Shown here piece after piece: positions 9,197 to 44,117 of a stretch of DNA of 64,000 nt. Origin of the DNA: Corynebacterium gallinarum (GTDB lineage Bacteria; Actinomycetota; Actinomycetes; Mycobacteriales; Mycobacteriaceae); the NCBI RefSeq assembly GCF_014837045.1, contig NZ_JACSPR010000002.1, forward strand, positions 310,001-374,000. Direction: 5' to 3'. Below the pieces are notes generated by a model, which did not search any database, was not told the DNA's origin, and saw only the letters and a program-made list of their open reading frames with translations. A program made the position numbers and the translations under genes. Position 1 is the stretch's first letter. Every line of letters begins with the position of its first letter.

Positions 9197-9266
9197 CCGG
9201 TCGATGTTAGTCCACCGTTGTAGGCGAGCTGGCCATGGTGTGGTCTGTGCCTACTGCGGGGGTTGG

Positions 9267-9442
9267 CAAAAACTGTTGGTTTGTGATGGAAAGGGGGTGA
9301 TATCGGGGTCCTGTGAGCACAAAACAACAGAATTTGTCATTCCCGGGTGCTGGTGGGACCTCCGCATGAACGAAATCGTTGGTTTGTGGTGGAAACGGAC
9401 TGATGTCGGGGTCCTGCGGGTGCAAACCCACGTTTTCGTTCA
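9267..9442. repeat. Dispersed palindromic repeat locus 1 (A + B hairpins)
   Basis: Two adjacent long hairpins in the gap between tuf and the 231-aa gene. Element A is arm CAAAAACTGTTGGTTTGTG (9267-9285) with arm 9318-9336 (16/19 paired). Element B is arm TGAACGAAATCGTTGGTTTG (9367-9386) with arm 9423-9442 (18/20 paired). Both loops contain GGGGTCCTG. The same A and B arms recur at three other intergenic loci in this window (about 30.3, 34.4 and 44.0 kb). There is no coding potential. Confidence 0.85.
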
Positions 9443-30112: not shown

Positions 30113-30255
30113 ACTCTATTCGCGTTGTGGCCTGGGCGCTGGTTTTCCCGGGGTGCCACTGGGTTTGCGCAGGTTGCGGTGAGCGAGGTGAGGGGGACAT
30201 CACAACTTGCACGCGGGAGGCCGAGGGGCGAGGGTGCCTGGAATGGGCTCCATGG

Positions 30256-30432
30256 CAAAAACTGTTGGTTTGTGGGTGCGGCGCTGGCAAAACCCCAGGA
30301 TGGGTTTTGCAAAACAACAGTTTTTGCCAGTCACCCCCTCCACCCCGCGCCCCCGTGAACGAAATCGTTGGTTTACCCGCCCCACATCAACAAAACCCCA
30401 GGACACCTCCCACAAACCAACGATGTCGTTCA
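30256..30432. repeat. Dispersed palindromic repeat locus 2 (A + B hairpins)
   Basis: Element A is arm CAAAAACTGTTGGTTTGTG (30256-30274) with arm 30308-30326. Element B is arm TGAACGAAATCGTTGGTTTA (30356-30375) with CAAACCAACGATGTCGTTCA (30413-30432). Both loops contain ACCCCAGGA, the reverse complement of the loop motif in loci 1 and 4, so this locus is inverted relative to those. It lies between the ABC permease and rplA. Confidence 0.85.
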
Positions 30433-34373: not shown

Positions 34374-34565
34374 TGAACGTTTTCGTTGGTTTGTCGGTGG
34401 TGGCCCCACATAACCCCAGGACGGGTTTCGCAAACCAACGATTTCGATCACCACCGCGCAAGGGCGCCCACGATCCCCCAGCACCCCGTGACAAAAACTG
34501 TTGGTTTGTGGGTCCGGCACGGTCAAAACCCCAGGAAGCCCATCGCAAAACAACGGTTTTTGCCA
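34374..34565. repeat. Dispersed palindromic repeat locus 3 (B + A hairpins)
   Basis: Element B is arm TGAACGTTTTCGTTGGTTTG (34374-34393) with CAAACCAACGATTTCGATCA (34431-34450). Element A is arm CAAAAACTGTTGGTTTGTG (34492-34510) with arm 34544-34562. Loops carry ACCCCAGGA (reverse orientation, as in locus 2). The A-element loop read on the minus strand differs from the locus-4 B loop by only a few bases. It lies between the tRNA-Thr and tRNA-Tyr units. Confidence 0.85.
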
Positions 34566-43901: not shown

Positions 43902-43929
43902 GGCCTCGGGACATTCCGGGCTGGTGTGG

Positions 43930-44117
43930 CAAAAACTGTTGTTTTGTGATGGGCGTCCTGGGGTTTTTCCAGCGCCTGCCCCACAAACCAACGGTTTTTG
44001 TCGTGGAGCCCAGGGTGTTCATGGGTGCCCTCCCGGGGTGGTGATCGAAATCGTTGTTTTGCGATGGGCGTCCTGGGGTTTTGCGGGGCCGGACACAACA
44101 AACAACGATTTCGTTCA
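43930..44117. repeat. Dispersed palindromic repeat locus 4 (A + B hairpins)
   Basis: Element A is arm CAAAAACTGTTGTTTTGTG (43930-43948) with CACAAACCAACGGTTTTTG (43982-44000). Element B is arm TGATCGAAATCGTTGTTTTG (44042-44061) with 44098-44117. Both loops contain GGGCGTCCTGGGGTTTT. Located between menB and pitA. The A+B order and loop orientation equal those of locus 1. Confidence 0.85.

Follow-up and report, generated by a model that had tools for sequence, protein, structure and literature searches.

What are the paired hairpins found at 9,265–9,442 of this DNA, and with what partner, if any, do they belong? The window analysed is the whole stretch of 64,000 nucleotides, G000:C22:310001-374000, where G labels denote genomes, C contigs and L fetched loci; G000 is the source genome of the window, of 3.12 Mb and a GC content of 62%. 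The original prediction had placed paired hairpins at four loci, and eight elements of 74–77 bp, four of type A and four of type B, were indeed located there, among genes that we take from gene order and sequence to be tuf, fusA, rpoB, rpoC and rplA. At locus 1 the A element occupies 9265..9338 and the B element 9367..9442 (strand unassigned), and in both the centre GGGGTCCTG replaces TCCTGGGG. Locus 2 has the A element at 30254..30328, with the core TCCTGGGG on the minus strand at 30293-30300, and the B element at 30356..30432. Locus 3 has the B element at 34374..34450 and the A element at 34490..34564; like the B element of locus 2, both carry their core on the minus strand. At locus 4, where the cores are on the plus strand, the A element (43928..44002) lies 26 bp downstream of a stop codon and is accompanied by the B element at 44042..44117.

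Each element has inverted arms, each about 20 bp long, on either side of a spacer of 36–40 nt, and paired elements are separated by a gap of about 30 or about 41 bp. The A arm is GRCAAAAACTGTTGGTTTG and the B arm is TGAACGAAATCGTTGGTTTG, with a variable centre; the two are of the same length and have the inner half GTTGGTTTG in common, and their feet read TGRC...GYCA in A and TGAA or TGAT...TTCA or ATCA in B. A loop motif common to all loci had been predicted. This holds for six of the eight elements, which carry TCCTGGGG or CCCCAGGA in the spacer, and fails for the two at 9.3 kb, which carry GGGGTCCTG. The G042 counterparts of locus 1 (9265-9442) also have the GGGGTCCTG-type form, with one base different. 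Folded as DNA, all eight elements were better than dinucleotide shuffles (z -3.0 to -5.0, with 0–2 of 200 shuffles equal). As RNA of the other strand, seven of the eight were clearly better than shuffles (z -3.0 to -5.1), and the fold of 34490-34564 was no better than its shuffles (z -1.6, 18 of 200 equal). At the gathering score, Rfam 15 matched only tRNAs in the window, and relaxed thresholds gave no plausible match at 14 further loci. A known structured RNA was rejected on these grounds, and the earlier statement that no known element could be assigned agrees with the lack of any matching Rfam family.

A search for the arms across the whole of genome G000, proposed earlier as a check, gave matches beyond the window loci at numbers well above the reversed control. 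With up to three mismatches there were 10+10 matches for the A arm, as compared with 3+0 for its reversed control, and 8+8 for the B arm as compared with 1+0; a few of the matches were single and unpaired. The genome contains 18 copies at 10 loci, all 18 of them intergenic according to genes called with a purpose-written small codon-usage caller, which bears out the predicted dispersed palindromic family with two subtypes. A covariance model trained on the 18 copies, which recovers those 18 by construction, found no additional match with E < 0.08 in the whole genome. The claim that the subtypes always occur in pairs applies to the four window loci and not genome-wide, where an A with a B makes up five of the 10 loci, two further loci hold B-A-A and A-A, and the remaining three have a lone element (A, B and B). 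The interpretation first given to the repeats was, in sum, partly supported. At L030 (G000:C28:8321-8339) a right B arm stands without a left partner and is probably a decayed element.

The 3,147,090-base chromosome of G042 has 21 copies, all intergenic. Nine of the ten G000 loci lie within segments aligning to G042 at 91–95% identity; the tenth, on C11, had no match in the single G042 segment compared. Two differences between the genomes are informative. Locus 2 is A-B in G000 and A-B-A-B in G042, and the B copy at C22:288875 has a G042 counterpart with an A-type right arm, from which we infer that units multiply in tandem and swap halves.

Several weak covariance-model matches from other Corynebacterium genomes combined the same centre with different arms. 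The 13-mer ACCTGGGGTTTTG (here TCCTGGGG) was found exactly in 113 of 242 Corynebacterium genomes, at none to 46 copies per genome, against 0–2 per genome for the reversed 13-mer. Tandem arrays have a period of 69–105 bp depending on the species, with no cassettes between units. A longer form of the core, a 17-mer, is present in Coriobacteriia; a scan of named genomes with it gave at least 120 stretches, many from Coriobacteriia and some from Williamsia, Gordonia and Corynebacterium, and the set includes some single matches elsewhere inside genes. Among the 17-mer matches listed, 23 of 123 core sites fell inside called genes, many of them from unrelated phyla, and the in-gene matches of unrelated phyla are probably due to chance. 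An inverted repeat scoring at least 9.5 surrounded the core in 109 of 191 distinct core contexts; with each context shuffled 20 times, 51 reached 9.5 at least once. In most strong cases the core lay near the middle of the inverted repeat, and the arms varied between species; arms change completely from species to species and even between families of a single genome, and in several species a single arm is itself palindromic. Of the 151 core sites in loci fetched from other Corynebacterium genomes, 137 were intergenic, 12 lay at gene edges and 2 fell within a gene. Convergent gaps were the commonest site of the 68 clusters (32), the others being tandem in the same sense (15), tandem in the opposite sense (10) or divergent (11). 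A fixed sense orientation, true for most copies in G000 and G042, was rejected genus-wide (tandem gaps 15 vs 10). Collectively, the elements belong to a wider class with a recurrent centre and species-specific arms.

In Collinsella, Slackia, Olsenella and similar genomes, a core lies about 135 bp from a gene that we presume to be Abi_2/AbiF-like, at 12 loci (L209, L219, L229, L248, L254 and seven more); because most of the 12 have almost the same segment, this link represents few events.

An all-against-all comparison of 1,534 proteins, called from the loci that had been fetched, brought out a nuclease with an AbiEi-like and a Vsr-like part as one of the families present in 7 loci; this neighbour was thus found without prior choice. 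In the source genome its gene lies outside the window, at G000:C30:160117-161100 on the minus strand, with an intact frame of 328 aa, and the product is 92% identical to the G042 nuclease. Two A copies abut the gene in G000; there and in G042 its stop codon is the outer TGA belonging to the first A copy. Of the ten element loci of G000 this is the only one beside the nuclease, and none of those in the window adjoins it, which counts against a link of repeat and enzyme. Besides G042/G000, the nuclease adjoins core arrays in G017, G010, G146/G093 and G062, where the stretch ends inside the gene. Apart from those of G146 and G093, the arms beside these genes show no relation to one another. In G017 and G062 the array begins a few bases from the nuclease stop codon. 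The stop of the G010 gene is followed, about 40 bp on, by a core element, with arm copies upstream of the gene too, and in G146 and G093 the array is 5' of the gene. Domain searches of 31 proteins (E <= 0.1) found MTES_1575 in 24, DUF559 in 19 and one AbiEi model in 21, and the catalytic-type residues D234, E245 and D247 were invariant in 31 of 31. The nuclease domain matched 3hrl, an endonuclease-like protein, by sequence (E 1.9e-5); its match to 3r3p, a mobile intron protein, was not significant (E 0.49). MTES_1575 domains also occur inside open frames of 1,519–1,737 residues at L308, L309 and L310 (G190, G111 and G017), unlike the partner proteins, which have about 310 residues.

Adjacency was assessed with profile A2, which was built from six nuclease proteins, the seed genes being palindrome-flanked, and which matched in 172 of the 242 genomes. 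Among the matches listed, in genomes with listed cores, 8 of 51 nuclease genes had a core within 1 kb, as compared with 0.35 expected (P 4e-9), and 4 of 47 still did so when the four seed genes were removed (P 3e-4). At the best 30 loci, an inverted repeat of 60–130 bp scoring at least 20 was present within 250 bp 3' of the stop in 12 cases, and 15 scored at least 13; on the 5' side of the same 30 loci no inverted repeat reached 20. The corresponding numbers were 14 and 66 among 622 other genes (Fisher P 5e-11), a control that includes regions fetched around cores, and 5 and 11 among 80 other genes of the same loci (Fisher P 6e-5). The best 30 loci are interdependent, in that L389 and L390 are identical, the arms of L376, L380, L389 and L390 are alike, and so are those of L385 and L391; because some loci have common arms, the 12 flanked loci amount to about 8 families. 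Many nuclease-adjacent palindromes have no CCTGGGG core. A second set of 16 genes, absent from the first, came from a Pfam search of repeat-rich genomes (30 loci, of which 4 very long frames were excluded, 4 repeated the first set and 6 had no profile match). Thirteen of these genes had a repeat scoring at least 13 on one side, that is, 13 of 32 flanks vs 82 of 1,227 (P 1e-7); seven repeats were at the 3' side and six at the 5' side, each at a different gene.

In seven non-Corynebacterium genomes, 21 nuclease matches corresponded to 20 called genes, two of which scored at least 20 and one 18, most being without a strong flanking palindrome. The sole nuclease match of Enterorhabdus sp. P55, which belongs to another class, has a 174-bp element 59 bp after its stop, with the core CGCGACCTGGAGTTTTGCG and the same arms as the dispersed copies of that genome. 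One Adlercreutzia nuclease gene has an element on its 5' side, with the core CACCTGGGCTTTTAC, and one Gordonia nuclease gene lies between two copies of one palindrome. Three Collinsella genes and one Williamsia gene score 14–15.5, in a setting without control; none of six Williamsia nuclease genes exceeded 15, and the Slackia genome gave no nuclease profile match. Taken together, palindromic repeats flank this nuclease family far above chance.

The arm beside the nuclease is also dispersed in its own genome in G000, G042, G017, G062 and Enterorhabdus. The arm GGTAATCAGCCGAGTA forms a single element beside the nuclease in G134, G135, G160 and G161 and is not dispersed, and the 3 kb locus of G158 contains an element of this arm type without such a nuclease gene. 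At L421 (G145:C1:1176274-1178980), 2.7 kb with IstA- and IstB-like genes, presumably of IS21 type, lies between the arms of a GGTAATCAGCCGAGTA element, as if the palindrome loop had been an insertion target. The single-copy GGTAATCAGCCGAGTA arm, G158 and G145 together indicate that dispersal depends on lineage.

The relation between nuclease and element was further followed in 24 genes with a 3' element. In the nine pairs with nucleases at least 70% identical the elements were alike, with scores of 56–220. The 267 more distant pairs had a median element score of 9 and a maximum of 37, with two at 25 or above. L381 and L382 have 91% identity in their downstream DNA, nucleases 57% alike and elements scoring below 20; L374 and L378 have kept their flanks, with nucleases about half identical and elements partly alike (37). 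Common descent explains part of this coupling, and even by itself it would let nuclease and element follow one another. We give an even chance to the reading that the dispersed palindromes have a cognate enzyme, namely the chromosomal AbiEi-like plus Vsr-like MTES_1575/DUF559 endonuclease.

The elements could instead act at the RNA level, as hairpins in 3' untranslated RNA that serve as a stabiliser, a terminator companion or a non-coding RNA partner of the nuclease; we regard this as unlikely. In its favour, the standard-motif copies run in the sense of the upstream gene in 11 of 14 cases in G000 and 12 of 14 in G042, copies often stand next to terminators (judged by eye), and palindromes often begin at the nuclease stop codon. 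However, one G000 pair is antisense to both flanking genes, the orientation in the 68 clusters of other Corynebacterium is variable, one element of the eight folds as RNA no better than its shuffles do, and Rfam gave no match. Pairing itself speaks on both sides. In the 18 copies, standard pairs fill 87.7% of the pair cells as compared with 79.0% in shuffles, but columns 8, 9 and 16 are unpaired in 8, 6 and 10 of the 18 copies, and two-sided changes occur mostly where A and B differ, so that few pairing events can be counted. Together with the arms that are palindromic in themselves, this may point to sites read in duplex form by a protein dimer, more than to a stem conserved for its fold.

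Another possibility is a MITE of an unseen transposase, that is, a palindrome mobile now or formerly for which the nuclease gene was a frequent landing place. Such an origin appears distinctly unlikely. The inverted arms with their TG...CA ends and the dispersal in intergenic clusters are as expected for a MITE. So is the comparison with the more distant relative G046, where the gene order is the same as in the window region and the A and B arms were not found in 80 kb with up to three mismatches allowed. At the site of window locus 3, G046 has a different palindrome with the arms ACATAACGTCACAAGATTT; the G046 palindromes at G046:C1:433235-433297 and 416320-416382 (L342, L343) are 17 kb apart and their arms differ slightly. 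Against mobility of this kind, and likewise against spread by the nuclease, no target-site duplication was seen by eye at the elements, whose flanks are diverged, and in G046 too diverged for clean junctions to be read at empty sites. Moreover, a kept centre with variable arms is the opposite of what a shared transposase would be expected to leave, and the same gene family neighbours unrelated arms in several lineages. One A-B pair each occurs in G046 (L273, C1) and G205 (L274, C80), at a locus common with G000, inside blocks that are closer to G000 (97.7% beside 85.5%, and 93% beside 88% and about 80%). From these identities, the shared blocks look like block (long-tract) recombination between species, not transposition.

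That a host protein binds the elements between transcription units, as sites that structure the chromosome or insulate, is very improbable: the surplus of convergent gaps (32 of the 68 clusters), the arms that are themselves palindromic and the pair spacing near 30 or 41 bp would suit such sites, but the arms are wholly different between species and even between families of one genome, and a range from none to 46 copies among 242 genomes is unexpected for a conserved host function.

If, as we favour, the AbiEi-like plus Vsr-like nuclease is the cognate enzyme of the palindromes, its AbiEi-like part would bind the arms as duplex DNA and its Vsr-like domain would nick or cut at or near the element. 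Repair would then copy the element to other intergenic sites or multiply it in tandem, and the dispersed copies would be passive partners of the nuclease. The arms would change together with the nuclease, like REPs with RAYTs, and types A and B would represent variant forms of a single site, comparable to the two REP forms listed for some RAYTs. Whether the nuclease recognises the arms we judge to be about evenly balanced, and that the enzyme spreads the elements we hold to be somewhat short of even. E. coli Vsr acts at CT(A/T)GG, and the core contains CCTGG, a resemblance to the Vsr site that is offered as an idea only. More broadly, and tentatively, the data may reflect a selfish or regulatory system of Actinomycetota, in which an AbiEi-type DNA-binding part fused to a Vsr-like nuclease reads the palindrome next to the gene that encodes it, in many lineages one with a CCTGGGG centre, cutting and repair seed non-autonomous intergenic copies, and palindrome and enzyme co-evolve. 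Such a system would be an unrecorded, convergent counterpart of REP/RAYT, ranging from Mycobacteriales to Coriobacteriia.

DUF559/MTES_1575 proteins are widespread and little is known of their role. The link proposed here would give a testable role both to them and to the palindromic repeats, since candidate sites for the nuclease can be read from the genome that encodes it, harmless industrial species included, and it bears on the origin of short palindromic repeats outside REP/RAYT. If it is true, repeats have entered into partnership with unrelated enzymes on more than one occasion, and new site-specific nucleases could be found through the palindrome beside their gene. A Vsr-like DUF559/MTES_1575 member has been studied in Caulobacter (PMC12907096). 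In titles and abstract openings, a source in which subscription journals are mostly uncovered, no link between DUF559/MTES_1575 genes and palindromic repeats was found.

How, then, does this arrangement compare with known systems? The nuclease domain is presumably akin to the Vsr-like and EDxHD homing nucleases, a likeness to 3hrl and 3r3p that is by sequence match alone; unlike homing nucleases, the gene is free-standing, has an AbiEi-like N-terminal part and is accompanied by a palindrome. AbiEi, the regulator of the AbiE type IV toxin-antitoxin system, binds inverted repeats. The N-terminal part is similar to AbiEi models, but here a C-terminal nuclease domain is fused to it and many palindromes lie 3' of the gene. 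An attC/integron array was rejected: attC sites have a variable centre, conserved R/L core sites and cassettes between sites, whereas here the centre is conserved, the arms are variable and the tandem units of 69–105 bp follow one another without cassettes. A CRISPR-like array was rejected as well, the tandem units repeating arm and core alike without unique spacers. The families Cod-1 to Cod-5 of C. diphtheriae are described as stem-loops of 32–170 bp, and Cod-1 and Cod-5 are marked I in its table, which we read as intergenic (PMC2267715). Compared by this description only, the Cod families may be members of the present class.

The closest parallel is with REP/BIME sequences, which two papers describe as short extragenic palindromes that are species-specific, sometimes of two forms per genome, clustered, and flanking a RAYT gene (PMC2817692, PMC3733652). 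The elements studied here are likewise short, extragenic, clustered and species-variable palindromes, occur in two forms and are linked to an enzyme gene. Unlike REPs of 20–40 bp, they measure 74–77 bp and have a long spacer with a recurrent central motif, and the 18 copies carry no GTAG/CGTC tag at the foot, by which REPs are defined. Their palindrome is usually on one side of the nuclease gene only, and the neighbouring enzyme is a Vsr-like PD-(D/E)XK nuclease in place of the tyrosine transposase RAYT. By analogy, the system would work like REP/RAYT, and would differ from it in the size and tag of the palindrome and in the family of the enzyme.
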